Part shown: positions 2,312 through 15,507 of the stretch, one piece after another
Position numbering within the stretch: position 1 is the first letter of the stretch
Layout: each line of letters opens with the position of its first letter
Origin: a virus
Direction: 5' to 3' (one strand)
IMG/VR virus record: IMGVR_UViG_3300044675_002418
Location: 1-20,251 of that record
DNA: 20,251 bases
Notes under the pieces: generated by a model
What the model was told of the DNA's origin: nothing
Databases searched by the model: none
The model's input: the letters and a program-made list of their open reading frames with translations, nothing else
Made by a program: the position numbers and the translations under genes

Positions 2312-2508
2312 TTTAATTGGCTTTTAATGGCTTGAATATTGTCGCTTAATAGTTTGCCTACAAATAAATACTTCTTATCCTCAGCAACACTCTCAGGGGC
2401 TAACTCGTTAATGACTGAGTTAGGGATAGTAATTAATATTTGACCTTTCTTATCTATCCATTGCATTGGCTTTCTTCCGCAGTTCTTTTTGTTGTTTATC
2501 TTTTTCAT
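2308..2508 (-). CDS. Small hypothetical protein, 66 aa
   Basis: Very basic N-terminus (MKKINNKKNCGRKPMQWIDKK) followed by ILITIPNSVINEL, whose beta-strand character resembles small AbrB- or ribbon-type DNA-binding proteins, but no family can be named. The ATG at 2508 lies 15 bases downstream of the tRNA-like element, so both probably share one transcript starting near 2607. It overlaps the next ORF by ATGA. Confidence 0.6.
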   Translation of the reverse strand: MKKINNKKNCGRKPMQWIDKKGQILITIPNSVINELAPESVAEDKKYLFVGKLLSDNIQAIKSQLK

Positions 2509-2523
2509 CTTTATTTTTATTTG

Positions 2524-2603
2524 CAGTCAGGACAAGATTTGAACTTGCAATATCGGCTTGATTTTTATGTCTTGCTTCTGCGCTACCATTCCGCCACCTG
2601 ACT
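2524..2603 (-). tRNA. tRNA-like element lacking a recognisable anticodon stem
   Basis: Read on the minus strand from 2603. There is a perfect 7-bp acceptor stem, AGTCAGG (2603-2597) with CCTGACT (2531-2525). Then come T8-G9, a D-arm GGCGGAATGGTAGCGC of the tRNA-Leu type, and a 5-bp T-stem with loop GCAAG-TTCAAAT-CTTGT. Position 73 would be G, and CCA is not encoded. The 31 bases between the D and T stems are long enough for a type II tRNA, but sliding a 5-bp stem with a 7-base loop through them finds no anticodon arm. It may be a decayed tRNA-Leu-like gene or a tRNA mimic. No amino acid identity is assigned. Confidence 0.45.
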
Positions 2604-2612
2604 AATACATTG

Positions 2613-2620
2613 CAAATTTA
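2613..2620 (-). promoter_or_regulatory. Candidate -7 box (TAAATTTG) before the tRNA-like element
   Basis: TAAATTTG on the minus strand fits the Bacteroidota TAnnTTTG -7 box. It ends nine bases before the 5' base of the tRNA-like element, so the transcript would begin close to its mature 5' end. No good TTTG is seen about 19-21 bases upstream, so the call is weak. Confidence 0.4.
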
Positions 2621-2651
2621 CTTTATTTAATTAATATTTTATAGTATTTTA

Positions 2652-2807
2652 TTAACATTGATTACTCAGTTGTATTCTTACCCTGTGTTTTATCTGCATA
2701 TATCTAACCCATAACTCAAATGACTTGCACTCTTTCGCTATTGTAGTATTTAACTTAACCACTTCTTTAGGGGTTATTAGTTGTCCAAATATTGCTGCAT
2801 CATTCAT
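2652..2807 (-). CDS. Small hypothetical protein, 51 aa
   Basis: Starts MNDAAIFGQLITPKEVVKLN and ends RIQLSNQC. Its ATG (2805-2807) overlaps the stop of the DnaA-domain gene as ATGA, the signature of most real junctions in this region. It is the last gene of that early group before the AT-rich gap and the tRNA-like element. The family is not recognised; it is mostly helical and basic toward the C-terminus. Confidence 0.6.
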   Translation of the reverse strand: MNDAAIFGQLITPKEVVKLNTTIAKECKSFELWVRYMQIKHRVRIQLSNQC

Positions 2808-3253
2808 AATTGTATTTTACTTATTATTTCGTTATAATCCTGTCTAAATTGTCTGTCGGTTTTGTGTAGGTCATCAAACTTTTTAAGTGCGTATATCACT
2901 GTACTATGGTCTTGGTTACAGATAAAGTTTGCTAATACTTTTAATGATAAAGTTGTATGCTCTCTCATGTACTTGTAAAAGAAAAACCTACCTTGCACAA
3001 AGTTGCGCTCTCTTGAATTGCTCTTGATGTCAATATGATAATACTCATTGATTGTATTGAGTAATGTATCTGCTAACATATTATAGTCAACAAATATTTT
3101 AGCTTTGACTTCTTGTTTTGTATCATCATTGTAATGTAATTGACTTAATGCCTTACGATGTACTCTTGCCTCTTGTAATGCTTTAGTGTAGCTTTGACGA
3201 TGGAACTCTCTCTTCCTATCTAATTGGCTTATTGTGTGTCTATTTGGTGTCAT
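2804..3253 (-). CDS. Stand-alone DnaA domain IV-like DNA-binding protein
   Basis: 149 aa. Residues about 78-145 match the C-terminal duplex-binding domain of the replication initiator DnaA: RERNFVQGRFFFYKYMREHT followed by the signature DHSTVIYALKKF (115-126). The N-terminal 75 residues are basic and helical and carry no AAA+ ATPase. In DnaA this domain recognises DnaA boxes. A free copy could bind phage or host origin sites, act as a decoy, or serve as a repressor. It sits at the end of the recombination and early gene block. The start overlaps the upstream stop by ATGA and the next ORF in the same way. Domain assignment is strong; the role is inference. Confidence 0.85.
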   Translation of the reverse strand: MTPNRHTISQLDRKREFHRQSYTKALQEARVHRKALSQLHYNDDTKQEVKAKIFVDYNMLADTLLNTINEYYHIDIKSNSRERNFVQGRFFFYKYMREHTTLSLKVLANFICNQDHSTVIYALKKFDDLHKTDRQFRQDYNEIISKIQL

Positions 3254-3504
3254 AATTGTTTCTCTATAAATTTGTGAAATTGTGGGTACTGATTTAATCG
3301 GTTTTCAAAGTTTGCTTTTTGAACATCGTTTAACTTATACATTTGGTTTGCCTCGCCTACATTGTCAAGTATTACTACATCAAGACTAACTGCCTCAACT
3401 TTTACTTTGTCATCTTCTTTGTAGGCTGATACATATCCGCTTACCTTGTAGGTCATGTGACCTAATGCACAATGTAGGTCTTTAAGTTCTATTACTTTTG
3501 TCAT
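3250..3504 (-). CDS. Hypothetical early protein, 84 aa
   Basis: Family not recognised. The sequence alternates beta-prone segments (YKVSGYVSAY, KVKVEAVSLDVVIL) with a C-terminal amphipathic helix (NDVQKANFENRLNQYPQFHKFIEKQL). It has no membrane segment. It is coupled by ATGA to the DnaA-domain gene downstream and lies 11 bases after the gene at 3516-3728, so it belongs to the same short early operon. Confidence 0.7.
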   Translation of the reverse strand: MTKVIELKDLHCALGHMTYKVSGYVSAYKEDDKVKVEAVSLDVVILDNVGEANQMYKLNDVQKANFENRLNQYPQFHKFIEKQL

Positions 3505-3515
3505 GTTGTTTGGGG

Positions 3516-3728
3516 TTAATTTAAAACTTCAATAGTATAGATGTTGTGAATGCCTACTGATGACCAATGCGCTCCGTTAAAATCTTTAATAATTGCATGA
3601 CCACCACCTAAATGCTTAACTACATAACCACAGGCTTTCATTACATAGTAACCATCTTTGTCATAAGATTGAACTTTTGTACCGATTGGGTACATTTCTA
3701 AATTGTTGTTTTTTAATTCGTTATTCAT
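3516..3728 (-). CDS. Hypothetical early protein, 70 aa
   Basis: Family not recognised. It is a small beta-rich protein (YPIGTKVQSYDKDGYYVMKACGYVVKHLGG) resembling an SH3-like barrel. The ATG at 3728 lies only four bases after a candidate -7 box, which would make the transcript nearly leaderless. Met12 (3695), just before the conserved-looking region, is an alternative start that would leave a normal leader. First gene of the operon toward the DnaA-domain gene. Confidence 0.65.
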   Translation of the reverse strand: MNNELKNNNLEMYPIGTKVQSYDKDGYYVMKACGYVVKHLGGGHAIIKDFNGAHWSSVGIHNIYTIEVLN

Positions 3729-3732
3729 AGGA

Positions 3733-3783
3733 CAAAAATAATACTTAATTTAATATAAACAAGATATTTTTTAAATTATTTTT
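3733..3783 (-). promoter_or_regulatory. Early promoter block, copy 1
   Basis: The minus strand carries TATTTTTG (3740-3733), fitting TAnnTTTG, with CTTG about 19 bases upstream. A 20-base AT tract at 3764-3783 is identical to 6481-6500, and the bases around 3733-3746 also match 6451-6464. Nothing else is seen in the gap 3729-3818. Confidence 0.6.
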
Positions 3784-3818
3784 AAAATAGTATACAACCC
3801 TAATAAATACAAGCATCT

Positions 3819-4451
3819 TCACTTATAAATATTTAATCTTTTTTGATATTTTAACCTTAATTCAACCCTTTTTTCAGTCGTTCTTGGCAACATTTCTTCT
3901 TGATTTAGCATTTTTAATTCTAAAATTACACTTTTTGCGTTCTGAATTGCCTCTTTTATTTCCTCTTTTGTAATCTTCAATGTTGGATATTTCCTCTTTT
4001 GTTCTAAATATAAGTGATATAAGTTGAGTTTTTCCAACATTTCACGATACTCAAGTAGGTTTCCACTGAGGTGCTGATTGTCGTGGACTGACTGAGAATA
4101 CATATTGAATAAATTAAATTGAAGTGCAGGGTTTGAGCCTCTTGATGCAAAGTGTCCGCATTCATCTGTATCTTTATAAGGTCGATTACTACTTATGCAA
4201 TTACAACCTTTGTCTATTAACCTTACAATCAAGTTGACCTGTGCCTGTAATATCTTTTTCCAATAACTTAAATTCTCTAAGTCCTTTAATTTAGCTTTGT
4301 TTTCTTTTCGCTTATTGTTTGCCTCTGTCATCTTTACTTTGGGTAGGTGTATCTTTGAGTATTCAATAGCACATAAGCCCCCACAAACCATTTGAAGTGG
4401 CTTAGTGGGGGTGTATTTAGTTTTACATATCTTACATAGTTTAGGTTTCAT
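3819..4451 (-). CDS. ninG: NinG (Rap) family recombination protein
   Basis: 210 aa, about the usual length of lambda NinG. The N-terminus holds a zinc-binding set C6-x2-C9 and C23-x3-C27. The middle has the family signature: a WKKILQAQVNLIVRLID helix, then C-x-C-ISS, ECGHFASRGSNPALQFNLFNMYSQS, and HDNQHLSGNLLEYR. In lambda, NinG/Rap promotes recombination and acts on branched DNA. Its place near the ERF annealing protein supports a role in phage recombination. The ATG (4449-4451) overlaps the upstream TAA by one base. A gap with a promoter follows the stop, so it ends its operon. Confidence 0.9.
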   Translation of the reverse strand: MKPKLCKICKTKYTPTKPLQMVCGGLCAIEYSKIHLPKVKMTEANNKRKENKAKLKDLENLSYWKKILQAQVNLIVRLIDKGCNCISSNRPYKDTDECGHFASRGSNPALQFNLFNMYSQSVHDNQHLSGNLLEYREMLEKLNLYHLYLEQKRKYPTLKITKEEIKEAIQNAKSVILELKMLNQEEMLPRTTEKRVELRLKYQKRLNIYK

Positions 4452-5558: not shown

Positions 5559-6101
5559 TTAAATGATGTTAAAATTTGTTTTTAATTGTGCCTCTACTTC
5601 CTTACTTACTTTGTACTTTGTTCTAATGTTCTTAAGTGTAAACTTACTGCCATCTGCAATAGCCTTTTCAATCTCTAAACATTTAGATGTTTTCTTACCT
5701 TGATTGTCAAATAGGTTAAGCCATTCAGTTGGCTCGGTTGTACTTGCAGGTGTACTTGATGCCGTGTTTGCATCGTCATCTTCTGCCTCAAGTCCTAACA
5801 ATGATTGAAGAGTATATCGTCTAAAATAAGTTATCTCACTACCTTTTTGCTGAGCGTTTAAATTTGCAGTCAATTCCAATTCACTTTCTGCAATTACTTT
5901 GCCTGTTTCAATATCTATAATTTGACTTATCACTTTGCCCTCTCTTATCGGTTGTAAGAGCATCAATCCATTTTCTGATAGGATTGGCTTAACATCATAC
6001 AAAAGTGAGTTAATATCAAAGTATTTGTTTTTAAAATGAGGATTAACACTATCCTTAGTAATAGGCTTAATCTGATTAATTGCTTTAGCTAACTTATTCA
6101 C
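5559..6101 (-). CDS. erf: ERF superfamily single-strand annealing recombinase
   Basis: 180 aa. Residues 1-112 match the ERF domain: NKLAKAINQIKPITKDSVNP at the N-terminus, FKNKYFDINSLLYDVKPILSENGLMLLQP, and the hallmark EITYFRRYTLQSLLGLEAEDDDAN (89-112). ERF proteins form rings that anneal complementary single strands during phage recombination and replication restart. After about residue 113 a Ser/Thr/Pro linker leads to a short helical C-terminus, as in other family members. It overlaps the upstream gene by 8 bp. No exonuclease partner is obvious next door. Confidence 0.92.
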   Translation of the reverse strand: MNKLAKAINQIKPITKDSVNPHFKNKYFDINSLLYDVKPILSENGLMLLQPIREGKVISQIIDIETGKVIAESELELTANLNAQQKGSEITYFRRYTLQSLLGLEAEDDDANTASSTPASTTEPTEWLNLFDNQGKKTSKCLEIEKAIADGSKFTLKNIRTKYKVSKEVEAQLKTNFNII

Positions 6102-10548: not shown

Positions 10549-11016
10549 TTATTTTTTGAATGAGATATAAATCCCTACTAAAATCATGACAAAAGCAAAC
10601 CAAATCCACTTAGTCCATTGTGGTATTTCTTTTTTAGTGATGACCTTATTTACCCTGTAAAATTCTTTTATAATAGTATCTTTAGTTATTGTCTGCCAAA
10701 GTTCTTTAGTTTTCCACCTAATTATAGTCTTAACTTTAACCCCTCCACTATCTACAAATAGAGTATCAAATTCATTATTAGTTTTGAATTGTACGAAAGT
10801 ATCGTACACCTGACCGAAAGTTGTGTCGTAAAACTTAATAGTATCGTTTTTAAAGCACTTTAAAGCTATTGCCTTACTACTTATACGTTCGCACTTTTTT
10901 GATGCGCTACAAGACGATAAAAATAATAGTATAAAAATAAATCTATAAGCAAACCAATAAAATAATTTAGTAGGCATTTTTTTAAATATGTTAATTTGTC
11001 TAATTGTGTATTTCAT
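10549..11016 (-). CDS. Candidate unimolecular spanin (lipoprotein with C-terminal membrane anchor)
   Basis: 155 aa. A signal sequence (about 15-35, rich in Phe/Ile/Leu) ends in the lipobox LSSC with Cys36, predicting outer-membrane lipidation. A periplasmic part of about 95 residues with beta-prone segments follows. Residues about 134-152 (WTKWIWFAFVMILVGIYISF) form a membrane segment ending in KK. A lipoprotein end plus an inner-membrane anchor in one chain is the architecture of u-spanins, such as T1 gp11, which fuse the membranes in the last step of lysis. It sits at the end of a chain of holin-like genes and a wall-enzyme gene. Met14 is an alternative start. No homologue was compared. Confidence 0.7.
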   Translation of the reverse strand: MKYTIRQINIFKKMPTKLFYWFAYRFIFILLFLSSCSASKKCERISSKAIALKCFKNDTIKFYDTTFGQVYDTFVQFKTNNEFDTLFVDSGGVKVKTIIRWKTKELWQTITKDTIIKEFYRVNKVITKKEIPQWTKWIWFAFVMILVGIYISFKK

Positions 11017-11087
11017 GACGATAAAATTAATGCAATAAAACTTATTAGAATAACTGCCTTAATAAAAGTTTTTAGATAAATATTCAT
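11013..11087 (-). CDS. 24-aa membrane microprotein
   Basis: Encodes MNIYLKTFIKAVILISFIAL plus ILSS: a short basic head and one continuous hydrophobic helix. Its ATG overlaps the stop of the upstream holin-like ORF (11084-11087) and its TGA overlaps the ATG of the spanin-like gene (11013-11016), both as ATGA. Without it the two genes would be separated by 67 bases with no such coupling. It could be a holin, an antiholin or just a coupling ORF. Confidence 0.5.
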   Translation of the reverse strand: MNIYLKTFIKAVILISFIALILSS

Positions 11088-11275
11088 TTTATTTTTAATT
11101 GAGCAATAACAAAGTTAAGAACACCAACTAATACAAGTATAATTCCCTTAATAGTTTGCTTTAAAGTATCTTCAAATGGAAACATCTCTATTGCCTTACT
11201 CTCTTCAATAGCAATTACACAAAGATATACGATGTTAAGTATTCCTAATATTTTAGTTTTTTTAGTTAGTTTCAT
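11084..11275 (-). CDS. Small two-helix membrane protein, holin-like
   Basis: 63 aa with two hydrophobic stretches, about 9-24 (LGILNIVYLCVIAIEE) and 43-60 (GIILVLVGVLNFVIAQLK), a charged N-terminus (MKLTKKTK) and a basic C-terminus. Size, topology and position directly after the DUF5675 gene fit a phage holin, which would release or trigger the lytic enzyme. It shares ATGA overlaps with both neighbours. No specific holin family is recognised. Confidence 0.6.
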   Translation of the reverse strand: MKLTKKTKILGILNIVYLCVIAIEESKAIEMFPFEDTLKQTIKGIILVLVGVLNFVIAQLKIK

Positions 11276-11700
11276 TTGATTGATATAAATATTTCCTCAG
11301 TTTTTTCTACCTTTTTTAACTTAGCCATTAATTTAGAATAGGCTATTTTAGATTGACCTACAAAGTCTTTTGAAGTTGTCATGCCTACAATTAAACACCC
11401 CTCAGTGTGTGCTGAGGTGTTACCTGAGTGTATTCTAATACCTTGAAATCCTTTAACATTAAGTAGTAAAGGCATATACTCTTTAAATCTTGGACTAAAT
11501 GTAATAGCAACTCTATAAGTTCCTTTAGGTATTGCAGTTTCAGCATAAACTTTTTTAGCTTTGATTTCTGAGTCTGTCATGATTGAGTCTAAGCCTCTGT
11601 CCATATCCTCTAAGACATAGCAAAAGAACTCCCCATTAATAAGTAGTTCACCAATAGTTGACTTTGTAGTTCTTGTTTTTCTGTTTAATTCTAATATCAT
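11272..11700 (-). CDS. DUF5675 protein, likely peptidoglycan-acting
   Basis: 142 aa from the ATG at 11698-11700. The start is fixed by an ATGA overlap with the 52-aa ORF upstream and by the family N-terminus (MILELNRKTRTTKSTIGEL). A longer reading from 11754 would overlap that ORF. Key segments are IPKGTYRVAITFSPRF (58-72) and IRIHSGNTSAHTEGCLIVG (88-106), with His91, His98 and Cys102 arranged much like the His...Cys active site of YkuD L,D-transpeptidase-like folds. DUF5675 proteins are common in Bacteroidota phages near lysis genes. A role in cutting or remodelling cell wall is inferred from position and these residues. Confidence 0.8.
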   Translation of the reverse strand: MILELNRKTRTTKSTIGELLINGEFFCYVLEDMDRGLDSIMTDSEIKAKKVYAETAIPKGTYRVAITFSPRFKEYMPLLLNVKGFQGIRIHSGNTSAHTEGCLIVGMTTSKDFVGQSKIAYSKLMAKLKKVEKTEEIFISIK

Positions 11701-11855
11701 ATTCTTTTGATAAGTGGTTTTAAAAAGTAAAGTAATATTCCTGCACACAAACACTCAACAAAGAAAGTCAGCACAAAGAAAGTAACTCCCATGACTGCCA
11801 ACATAAAAGTTAAGTTTGCTAAAAATTCTATAAATTCGTTGATTAAATAATTCAT
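11697..11855 (-). CDS. 52-aa membrane protein, holin-like
   Basis: Starts MNYLINEFIEFLANLTFMLA and continues with a second very hydrophobic stretch (VTFFVLTFFVECLCAGILLYF), ending KPLIKRI. It probably forms one or two membrane helices with a basic cytoplasmic tail. ATGA overlaps at both ends (11852-11855 and 11697-11700) tie it to the coiled-coil membrane protein and to the DUF5675 gene. It is a holin or antiholin candidate. Confidence 0.65.
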   Translation of the reverse strand: MNYLINEFIEFLANLTFMLAVMGVTFFVLTFFVECLCAGILLYFLKPLIKRI

Positions 11856-12088
11856 TGTTTTATTCTTAATAATTCCTCAATTCTTGATTTCTCGCAATTT
11901 AATAATTTAATTTCTAAATCTTCTATTTGTTTTTCAAGTTTTAATCTCATTTCTTTTTGCTCAGATTTCAATTCGTCTTTTAATCGTTCATAAGCATTGT
12001 ACTGAAGATATATGACCGCCCCTAACAATATAGCAATTAAGCCTTGTTTCTTTAAACTATCAAATAAAAATTGCCAATCGAATATCAT
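11852..12088 (-). CDS. Membrane-anchored coiled-coil protein, 78 aa
   Basis: One N-terminal membrane helix (about 15-30, QGLIAILLGAVIYLQYN), then a long charged coiled coil (about 33-75, with repeats of Leu/Glu/Lys such as KEMRLKLEKQIEDLEIKLL). This resembles an inner-membrane spanin or a BhlA-type holin-like protein. As a full spanin-like protein occurs at the end of the cassette, a BhlA-like or accessory role is as likely. It is coupled by ATGA to the next ORF. Confidence 0.65.
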   Translation of the reverse strand: MIFDWQFLFDSLKKQGLIAILLGAVIYLQYNAYERLKDELKSEQKEMRLKLEKQIEDLEIKLLNCEKSRIEELLRIKQ

Positions 12089-12106
12089 CTGTATCTATCG
12101 TCTAAT

Positions 12107-12511
12107 TTAATTATCATTAGTATCATTTGTAGCCATTTTGGTAGGCGGATTTTCATCATGTTCTATGCTTTTTATACTATGATTATTGTCTAACAAATGT
12201 AATATAAAATCTAAAACTTTCCCAATATATGACAATTTACCCATTAATTTATTTTTCCCTAGTACACTACTAATGGTTTCATCAGGGTTTCCAAACTTAT
12301 GACCGCCTGTTTTTATCATGATGTCATTGAATAATTTAGCTAAAAAACTATTTGCATGTTGGTCAGTAGCTAAAGCACATCTAAATAAATATTCATCTAA
12401 ACTATTCCACCCACTTTTAATGAGGGTTAAAACAACTGAGTAAGTAAATGCAATAGGGTAAATAACCCCTGCTAAAAATATTGATACTAAAAATAAAATT
12501 AAACCTATCAT
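12107..12511 (-). CDS. Hypothetical membrane protein, 134 aa
   Basis: One strongly hydrophobic N-terminal region (about 1-32, MIGLILFLVSIFLAGVIYPI then FTYSVVLTLIKSG) followed by a soluble helical part containing KFGNPDETISSVLGKNK and ILHLLDNNHSIKSIEHDENP, and a polar tail. The GNPDETISSVLGKN motif looks conserved-type and occurs, as far as I recall, in other Bacteroidota phage proteins of unknown role. It precedes the lysis chain and is coupled to the upstream gene by ATGA (12508-12511). Function unknown; membrane location is likely. Confidence 0.6.
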   Translation of the reverse strand: MIGLILFLVSIFLAGVIYPIAFTYSVVLTLIKSGWNSLDEYLFRCALATDQHANSFLAKLFNDIMIKTGGHKFGNPDETISSVLGKNKLMGKLSYIGKVLDFILHLLDNNHSIKSIEHDENPPTKMATNDTNDN

Positions 12512-12984: not shown

Positions 12985-13795
12985 TGTAATAATCGTTTTG
13001 ATTGTCGTTTATGTCGTTTCTTTGTGATGATTTATCTGCTTTCCAAACTATAAATTCTGATACTAAACCCTCATAATTAAATGCAGCAGAACCTCCGTAT
13101 ATACCAAATAAATAATTTGCCCAAGCCGTAGTTGTTCCATTTTGTTGAACTTCTATTTTATGCCCATTTAAGTGTGTGTAAACATCACTCCGAGAAGTTC
13201 CTGTAAATAATGATTTGTTTGCATATAATGTCGGTGTACCATAAGCTAAAGTAATTGTTGTACTACCATTTCCATTTTGTGCAATATAATCTGCCTCACT
13301 ACCAAATGCACTACCTGTTGATTGTTTAATGTATGTTGTTTTAGAATTTGACCTTACTATATATGTATCTTGTCTTGCGTTGCCTCTTAAATCATTGTTA
13401 TTGAAAAAAGCAACATTTAAAATATTAACACAAGGTAAACCGCCCAATAGTTCAATAGTTCCTGCATTTACTATTCTTGGTTGTAAACTTGCAGTTGTTT
13501 GTGTAAAATGATTTGCACTCCCATTTTGATTATACCATGTTACAACAAAACCATTATTAGCACCTACAAATGTAGATAATGCAGTTGTGTCTAAAGGGCT
13601 ATCTACTGCACTTGAAAGAAAGTTAATGTCTTGTTCTGTATTATCACTTGACCTCCTTACTCTTATTGCTGCACCTGAATAAACCGCATTAGGGCTTAAC
13701 TTTCTAAGAGAATATGCAGCAGCAGGAACGCCAAACAAATCAGTAAAATACGCTGCACTTGCAAAACTTCCGTAATATATGTATATTCTACTCAT
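12974..13795 (-). CDS. AbfB-type (arabinofuranosidase-like) tail adhesin
   Basis: 273 aa. Residues about 20-100 (AAAYSLRKLSPNAVYSGAAI, RVRRSSDNTEQDINF, NGFVVTWYNQNG) match the N-terminal part of the alpha-L-arabinofuranosidase B catalytic domain fold (ConA-like beta sandwich), which phages reuse in tail fibres and receptor-binding proteins. The rest is beta-rich and ends in EFIVWKADKSSQRNDINDNQ, as in LamG-like tail proteins. It probably binds host surface glycan; catalysis is not shown. It is coupled to the 570-aa structural gene by TAATG at 13793-13797. Confidence 0.75.
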   Translation of the reverse strand: MSRIYIYYGSFASAAYFTDLFGVPAAAYSLRKLSPNAVYSGAAIRVRRSSDNTEQDINFLSSAVDSPLDTTALSTFVGANNGFVVTWYNQNGSANHFTQTTASLQPRIVNAGTIELLGGLPCVNILNVAFFNNNDLRGNARQDTYIVRSNSKTTYIKQSTGSAFGSEADYIAQNGNGSTTITLAYGTPTLYANKSLFTGTSRSDVYTHLNGHKIEVQQNGTTTAWANYLFGIYGGSAAFNYEGLVSEFIVWKADKSSQRNDINDNQNDYYNVF

Positions 13796-15507
13796 TAGTA
13801 TGTTCCTGTTAATTTAAAAAACCCTGCACTTGTTGTTATTGTACGCTTTACTACTAAGGTGTCTGTATTAGCTAATACTAAAGGACTTGAAAACGCTGCA
13901 AAAGAACCGCCATTTTTACTTAGTGTAATTGAACCACTACCCCCATCATTTGTTGTTGATGTAAAAGTTCCTGCACTTTCAGCATCAATAGTTAATGTTT
14001 CCATTGTATCACTTCCTGACTTAAATAAACCTTTTATAAATACCTCTTTAGGTAGTGTTATGTTTAATGTTCTACCGCTTATATCAAAGTTTAAAGGGAT
14101 TATATTAGTAGTTACATTGATAGTTCCTACACTCGGTATAAATCCACTTGCAACCCCATTGTTTTCAATAGATTGAGTAGGTAGTATTAAACCCTCAGTT
14201 GCTTTTACAAGTTGTGAGTAAGTTGGGCTAACTGCAGCGTTGGTAATTGATGAGTCGCCTACATTATAACTTGATGTATTTTCAGCCTTAACACTTACGG
14301 CACTAATTAAAACTCCATCCGATTTATTGACATTAACACTACTATCATTTATTGTGATGTTTTCAGTTGCCTCTGCTAATATCGGTTCGGTTTTTAAAGT
14401 AGTTCCAATGCTATCTTTAATGACTGCTGTTGAGTCGTTTATTGTGATGTTTTCTGAGGCTTGGGCTAAAATGTTTTCGGACTTTAAAGTAGTACCTACT
14501 GAATTTTTTATAACTGCAACTGAGTCGCTAATACTTATATTTTCAGTTGCCTCTGCTAAAATATTCTCACTCTTTAAAGTGTTATTTGCTGAGTCCTTTA
14601 TAACTGCTACACTATCATTAATAGTAATATTTTCACTTGCAGTTGCTAATATGTTTTCACTTTTTAAAGTCGTTCCTGCACTATCTTTGATGACCGCTAC
14701 ACTATCCGCAACATTGTAGCTACTTGTTCCCTGAGCTAAAATTGAACGACTACTTATTAAAGTAGATGCACTATTGTTTACATTTAAAGTACTATTGCCT
14801 ATAACCTCAGTAACACTTCCACCACTTGGGATTGTACCCGTATAAAGTACATTGCCTAAACTATCCTCAATGGTATAACTTGCATCAGGACAACTTCCGC
14901 CACTTGTATTAACTATCCATTCGCCACCTATTAAGCTACCTACTAAAGCACCTAATTGGTCTTTAACTACTACATTAAAGTTAGTATCGCTTGGTGCATT
15001 GCCATAAACAACTGAATTAATTAGTATTCGGGCATCTTTACATGGGTTGCTTGGACTTGGAATAGCTGAACTTAAAGGTATTGCACAACTATTAAAGTCG
15101 TAAAACTCCTCAATCCCTATATCTACAAAGTGCCCCGTTACTTCATCGCCCCATTTCTCCCAAAAAGGGGTTATTGTATTTGAACTTGTGATGCTAAAAC
15201 GCTCATTTGTGCCCAACTTCATCCAATAAGCTAAGGTGTCTAAGGCTATTAATTGAGTATCACTCTCTACTTCTAACTCATTACCCTCAGATTTAAGTAC
15301 TCTGTCCGCTATTACTACTCTGTAATTTCGTGTGTAGCTTGTTCCGGATAGGTTTCCGCCTAAAGGATAAACTAACATCAAAGGATAGATTAAGTTTTCG
15401 TAGGCTTGTTGTTCAAATTCCTGTGCATACAAAAAAGAATGGATTTGGTAATGTCCACTTGCAAGTAACTCAAACTCACTTTTTATTTGATTTGCTGTCT
15501 TTTGCAT
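13795..15507 (-). CDS. Neck/tail structural protein with six 30-aa repeats
   Basis: 570 aa. Residues 1-150 form a compact domain (MQKTANQIKSEFELLASGHY, YPLGGNLSGTSYTRNYRV, FVDIGIEEFYDFNSCAIP) that looks like a neck or tail-completion domain. Residues about 160-237 are a beta-rich linker. Residues 238-417 are six 30-residue units, the middle four close copies of DSVAVIKDSAGTTLKSENIL plus ATASENITIN, the first and last divergent like end caps. The C-terminal 150 residues are beta-rich, Ser/Thr-rich and Gly-rich. Position after the head connector and before an adhesin suggests a fibre or whisker at the neck or tail. The start at 15507 lies 68 bases after the connector gene. Confidence 0.65.
   Translation of the reverse strand: MQKTANQIKSEFELLASGHYQIHSFLYAQEFEQQAYENLIYPLMLVYPLGGNLSGTSYTRNYRVVIADRVLKSEGNELEVESDTQLIALDTLAYWMKLGTNERFSITSSNTITPFWEKWGDEVTGHFVDIGIEEFYDFNSCAIPLSSAIPSPSNPCKDARILINSVVYGNAPSDTNFNVVVKDQLGALVGSLIGGEWIVNTSGGSCPDASYTIEDSLGNVLYTGTIPSGGSVTEVIGNSTLNVNNSASTLISSRSILAQGTSSYNVADSVAVIKDSAGTTLKSENILATASENITINDSVAVIKDSANNTLKSENILAEATENISISDSVAVIKNSVGTTLKSENILAQASENITINDSTAVIKDSIGTTLKTEPILAEATENITINDSSVNVNKSDGVLISAVSVKAENTSSYNVGDSSITNAAVSPTYSQLVKATEGLILPTQSIENNGVASGFIPSVGTINVTTNIIPLNFDISGRTLNITLPKEVFIKGLFKSGSDTMETLTIDAESAGTFTSTTNDGGSGSITLSKNGGSFAAFSSPLVLANTDTLVVKRTITTSAGFFKLTGTY
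14257..14796 (-). repeat. Six in-frame 90-bp tandem units
   Basis: Each unit is 30 codons inside the 570-aa structural gene. The four middle units share most residues but differ at many third codon positions (for example ILAEATENI against ILAQASENI with different codons), so the protein repeat is old or kept by selection. They are coding repeats, not CRISPR. Confidence 0.8.

Follow-up and report, generated by a model that had tools for sequence, protein, structure and literature searches.

What is the function of six small minus-strand open reading frames (ORFs) that are chained by ATGA overlaps, and does each of them encode a protein in its own right? The chain lies in a 20,251-base virus record, analysed here in full and hereafter called the window, and combines tightly packed membrane ORFs with a small gene for a wall enzyme that lacks a signal peptide and with a lipoprotein gene whose product has a C-terminal membrane helix. 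We consider it likely that the phage is tailed and of Flavobacteria type and that these genes form its lysis cassette, comprising one or more holins, a YkuD-type DUF5675 endolysin and a u-spanin, in which ATGA joints serve as exchange borders and the 24-aa ORF is a cut-off signal peptide. A lysis cassette had been proposed in a sequence-only reading of this DNA, and that proposal is well supported by exchange at the enzyme slot, by a lipobox paired with a C-terminal membrane helix in the last protein, and by synteny in other phages.

The six ORFs (78, 52, 142, 63, 24 and 155 aa) and the five ATGA overlaps (11855-11852, 11700-11697, 11275-11272, 11087-11084 and 11016-11013) were all reproduced with the positions and lengths first listed for them (Table 1). 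A seventh, previously missed ORF lengthens the ATGA chain to six: it overlaps the end of the gene for a 134-aa protein, and its stop forms an ATGA with the start codon of the 78-aa gene. In two related contigs, L005 and L028, this ORF has 26 codons and is nearly overlap-free, the upstream gene being shorter there, and 3 of 3 changes between these contigs in its last 20 codons are synonymous. The 134-aa ORF is itself ATGA-joined (12511-12508) to a preceding 158-aa ORF. Across related contigs, pN/pS values of 0.06 to 0.25 (0.17 for the 52-aa ORF, 0.16 for the 142-aa ORF, 0.08 for the mature part of the 155-aa protein and others in Table 1) mark the cassette ORFs as real genes under clear selection.

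Table 1 Features of the cassette and its upstream border (window coordinates).
Feature	Coordinates	Strand	Basis
134-aa anchor protein, membrane segment at N-terminus; gene precedes the lysis genes	12107..12511	-	PHROG 3342; pN/pS 0.11
Missed small ORF, 24 aa, MMKIRLPKWLQMILMIIKLDDRYR	12085..12159	-	Open in 10/10 covering contigs
78-aa membrane protein with coiled-coil-like helix	11852..12088	-	pN/pS 0.06; weak PHROG 739 match
52-aa very hydrophobic membrane protein	11697..11855	-	No family match
DUF5675 predicted enzyme, 142 aa	11272..11700	-	PF18925, 1e-31; slot exchange; model
63-aa protein with two membrane segments	11084..11275	-	pN/pS 0.25; topology
24-aa ORF, putative detached u-spanin signal peptide	11013..11087	-	Fused to spanin in five relatives
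155-aa u-spanin-like lipoprotein	10549..11016	-	Lipobox LSSC; C-terminal membrane helix
104-nt segment with second signal peptide	10913..11016	-	In split-form contigs, absent from fused-form contigs

ATGA is the most frequent joint in the window, found at 11 of 36 adjacent gene pairs, so five in a row is no more than mildly unusual: when the 36 joints were shuffled, a run of at least five ATGA arose in 3.2% of orders (P about 0.03), exceeding chance only moderately. The claim that such coupling implies a fixed stoichiometry does not hold, because the output of translationally coupled genes can differ several-fold (PMC6728339) and because ATGA is common in this window.

Relatives were collected from IMG/VR scans with five region proteins plus border patterns. 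The same cassette occurs in about a dozen IMG/VR contigs, and a sister clade (L031-L044) shares the 134-aa anchor; those of its contigs that extend far enough also have a homologous last gene. Among isolates, relatives of the anchor are found mostly in Flavobacterium phages, and also in Olleya and Caulobacter phages, which together represent the nearest isolates. In Flavobacterium phage tooticki, the anchor homologue comes just ahead of a holin and an amidase, and in Muminvirus, too, the anchor directly precedes these two. Muminvirus resembles the present cassette in having this homologue ahead of the lysis genes but carries one larger holin (PF05105) and an Amidase_2 enzyme, whereas the window has several tiny membrane ORFs. 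A TerL family search across related contigs gave no match, and a scan of genome contigs with the 134-aa protein found no relative, so no prophage or host link emerged. Elsewhere in the window, a 570-aa ORF (13795-15507) with several near-identical repeats of the SVAVIKDSAGTTLKSENILA type is probably a tail or fibre protein, and a DnaA C-terminal DNA-binding domain (PF08299, 2e-11) occurs in a 149-aa protein (2804-3253) encoded near NinG (3819-4451) and ERF (5559-6101) genes.

Within the cassette, the 78-, 52- and 63-aa ORFs are intact and under purifying selection, and none of them matched a holin family in Pfam, PHROGs or NCBIfam. The 63-aa protein has two membrane segments and Lys-rich ends; for these features it is preferred as the holin and is a candidate class II-like one. 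The 52-aa protein is a candidate holin or antiholin. The 78-aa protein, with one membrane segment followed by a charged, coiled-coil-like helix bearing one conserved Cys, matches PHROG 739 ('Rz-like spanin') weakly (7e-4), and we leave its assignment undecided between holin-associated and i-spanin-like. The 52-, 63- and 24-aa products had all been called holin-like; the first two stay candidates, whereas the 24-aa ORF drops out as a putative detached signal peptide. In relatives that keep the flanking genes, the 24-aa ORF is broken as a separate unit, and the 52-, 63- and 78-aa ORFs are not.

The 24-aa ORF stands alone in six contigs (the window, L004, L010, L012, L025 and L026); in five others (L002, L003, L005, L027 and L028), two of them near-identical, it is joined to the spanin gene in one reading frame. 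The fused form reads MNIYLKTFIKA...LILSSC and then continues into the mature spanin, 144 aa in total, whereas the split form has TGA at the lipobox cysteine codon where its fused relatives have TGT. After this TGA, the split contigs carry a 104-nt segment that encodes another signal peptide, complete with a lipobox (in L004, just the first 56 nt are visible, at the contig end). Since the fused contigs use the same codons as the spanin signal peptide, the 24-aa ORF is best read as that signal peptide, truncated by a stop in place of the lipobox cysteine, rather than as an independent conserved gene. Split and fused forms interleave in a tree of mature spanins; this tree lacks well-supported branches and does not tell which state is older.

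These observations weigh on an alternative that we regard as unlikely, namely that the cassette encodes a holin, an antiholin and further small lysis proteins, with the 24-aa ORF an independent gene and ratios fixed by ATGA. The 78-, 52- and 63-aa ORFs are indeed conserved and hydrophobic, and the 24-aa ORF is intact in 6 of 6 split contigs, where its dN/dS is about 0.26 in its own frame and about 1 in the others. Yet the same codons form a spanin signal peptide in five contigs, the ORF stops exactly at the lipobox cysteine codon, the joints are of the window's commonest type, and coupled translation does not lock ratios (PMC6728339). The low dN/dS could mean that the ORF retains a role or that it was recently exchanged with fused forms, and for this reason it may still be used while separate. 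One version of such a role strikes us as possible though rather doubtful: the orphan signal peptide, made by splitting a lipoprotein gene at its lipobox cysteine and adding a second signal peptide, would persist, serving as a functional membrane peptide or as a reinitiation leader regulating the spanin or holin, with phages of one group switching between the split and fused forms.

The 155-aa ORF had been described as wall-related, which stands, but its product is more exactly a lipoprotein that ends in a membrane helix. It has a lipobox (LSSC, Cys36) and a hydrophobic C-terminal segment (134-155); the lipobox Cys is invariant in nine homologues of two clades that share 33% identity with each other, and the C-terminal membrane helix is present in every complete homologue, the sister clade included. 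Its low-confidence predicted model (pLDDT 47) consists of a short helix, four strands (pLDDT below 50 there) and then the membrane helix, and the u-spanin T1 gp11 has the pattern of a short helix, about four strands and a membrane helix (PMC6139136). T1 gp11 likewise has an N-terminal lipobox and a C-terminal membrane helix and is the last gene of its lysis cassette. The 155-aa protein departs from this type in that its signal-peptide region is polymorphic (split or fused) and its mature form carries two more cysteines (Cys42 and Cys54), whereas the 58 catalogued u-spanins are without a further periplasmic cysteine, a reported trait rather than a definition (PMC6139136). Neither the protein nor its sister-clade homologue had a match in 50,697 phage records. 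In one sister-clade contig (L042, 5688-6130), the spanin gene is immediately preceded by an additional gene, for a 60-aa lipoprotein, that is ATGA-joined to it. Judged by its sequence, the 155-aa protein has u-spanin architecture, and a membrane-fusing function is predicted. Translation may start at either 11016 (ATGA) or an internal ATG at 10977; the latter stays a candidate because codons 1-13 appear unconstrained (0.5 synonymous against 4.5 non-synonymous changes).

The same features speak against, and make improbable, an arrangement in which the 78- and 155-aa proteins are a two-component i-spanin/o-spanin pair instead of a holin-associated protein and a u-spanin. The N-terminal membrane helix, coiled coil, conserved cysteine and Rz-like PHROG match of the 78-aa protein would suit an i-spanin, as would the extra cysteines of the 155-aa protein suit its partner. 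However, the 155-aa protein itself carries a membrane helix at its C-terminus, which the sister clade keeps while showing no evident homologue of the 78-aa protein, and three genes separate the two ORFs.

In the slot flanked by the 52- and 63-aa genes, the window and four contigs (L002, L003, L004 and L005) encode DUF5675, four others (L024, L026, L027 and L028) encode Amidase_2 (3e-12) and L025 encodes an M15_3 peptidase (6.5e-15); in the sister clade the slot holds CHAP (2e-15) or M15_4 (2e-19). Those of the DUF5675, Amidase_2 and M15_3 contigs that were compared all share the same slot borders, AAAAGAAT-ATGA on the left and ATGA-AACTAA on the right. Averaged over enzyme-discordant contig pairs in 15-base bins, identity at the left border falls from 0.87 just before ATGA to 0.43 in the bin starting with ATGA and 0.21 beyond, and at the right ATGA it climbs from 0.38 to 0.96. 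To go by these alignments, the wall enzyme is swapped between close relatives exactly at two ATGA joints. Each contig searched has one enzyme family among the three models used (DUF5675, Amidase_2 and M15), the contigs being incomplete, and no second enzyme of the Amidase_2 or M15 family was found in the DUF5675 contigs searched.

Modules besides the enzyme reassort too. The 52-aa gene is identical in DNA between L002 and L025, whose enzymes differ; the 78-aa gene is only 1% different between L005 and L028, whose enzymes also differ; and L010 has a 63-aa allele that is 28-33% different from every other, its neighbours unchanged. The 78- and 52-aa slots are evidently exchanged as well, because in L024 (5443-5848) different membrane ORFs of 87 and 49 aa replace them. 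The ERF-type recombinase encoded in the window is a plausible agent of this mosaicism.

What had been one unnamed wall enzyme can now be named, as DUF5675 with a YkuD-like model. The 142-aa ORF matches DUF5675 (PF18925) with 109.6 bits against a curated cut-off of 26.7, and all 19 of the VIA-align matches listed for its predicted model (pLDDT 82.6) are L,D-transpeptidase-fold (YkuD-family) enzymes (Z 6.8-8.8), the best of those listed being Pgp2 (Z 8.8), Csd6 (8.0) and LdtMt2 (about 7.8). His91 and Cys102 are invariant in 7 of 7 divergent DUF5675 homologues; Cys102 lies within TEGC, fitting the [ST]xGC context, and His, Gly and Cys are all invariant in these seven. The YkuD signal thus comes from VIA-align and the motif; Foldseek with the model gave nothing significant, a PDB sequence search found no match and Pfam, with E allowed up to 1, returned nothing for YkuD. 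On balance, a YkuD fold is likely for DUF5675. The predicted fold and an H...TxGC-type motif are held in common with Campylobacter Pgp2, Helicobacter Csd6 and LdtMt2, whereas the phage protein has only 10-19% identity to them, is small, lacks a signal peptide and is encoded in a phage lysis cassette. It has no hydrophobic segment, and hence neither signal nor SAR, as in a canonical holin-dependent endolysin.

Positional evidence also comes from an unrelated record, the circular Manatee Spring phage MW202455.1 (L084). A partly unannotated stretch there, in which few genes are marked, has DUF5675 flanked by membrane ORFs on one side and an Rz/Rz1-like pair on the other. This apparently complete lysis cassette (2353-4093) starts with two membrane ORFs, followed by DUF5675, by an Rz-like protein and, via an ATGA joint, by an Rz1-like lipoprotein. 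LD-endopeptidase activity occurs in the YkuD family (PMC12729407), and YkuD domains are found among catalogued phage lytic proteins (PMC8310338). Together with the exchange with Amidase_2 and M15 enzymes, the YkuD-like model and the MW202455 cassette, these precedents lead us to infer that DUF5675 is a holin-dependent endolysin cutting at an L,D bond, both activity and bond being predicted. That DUF5675 instead alters the wall for another purpose, such as modifying stem peptides during infection, is in our view quite improbable: most characterised YkuD-fold enzymes do cross-link or trim, with LD-endopeptidase activity in few (PMC12729407), but the one-for-one exchange with an amidase and an M15 peptidase at the same joints, the failure to find a second such enzyme in the DUF5675 contigs searched and the holin/Rz/Rz1-type setting in MW202455 all argue for a lytic role.

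DUF5675 is present in at least 187 phage records, among them crAss-like, Bacteroides and Vibrio phages and Microviridae, and we found no paper testing its function. Proteins of crAss-like phages labelled 'L,D-carboxypeptidase/transpeptidase' belong to the same family (40-55% identity), and in cr85_1 the gene adjoins those for a lipoprotein and a membrane/coiled-coil protein annotated as a lysis regulator/holin; their function is a database label, whereas slot exchange with known lytic enzymes provides independent evidence here. Two homologues (L007, 3001-3462; L009, 5001-5462) are open only if TGA is tryptophan, and reading through on that basis led us to reject the idea that they are broken genes. 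A third (L008, 5001-5459) is open only if TAG encodes an amino acid. Stop-codon recoding therefore touches the DUF5675 lysis gene.

Under the lysis-cassette reading, one or two small membrane proteins would open the inner membrane, our best guess being the 63-aa protein as holin and the 52-aa protein as its partner or antiholin. Cytoplasmic DUF5675 would then cleave stem peptides through a YkuD-type Cys/His active site, most likely at an L,D bond at diaminopimelate, and such cleavage would open 4-3 cross-links. The 155-aa protein, its lipid in the outer membrane and its C-terminal helix in the inner, may then fuse both in the manner of a u-spanin. The ATGA overlaps would permit termination-reinitiation translation and mark module-exchange borders, and a stop at the lipobox cysteine would have detached the 24-aa signal peptide in lineages with the 104-nt replacement-signal segment.

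The locus is a well-preserved lysis cassette of a known kind; its record of module exchange is unusually clean, and the candidate endolysin family is new. On a small scale, it illustrates clearly how modules are exchanged at gene joints, and it indicates that a lipoprotein signal peptide can detach as a tiny ORF that resembles a gene. The main use of the cassette is as positional evidence for DUF5675 as a lysis enzyme: one-for-one exchange with two lytic enzyme types makes DUF5675 a well-supported candidate endolysin family and a target for assays.
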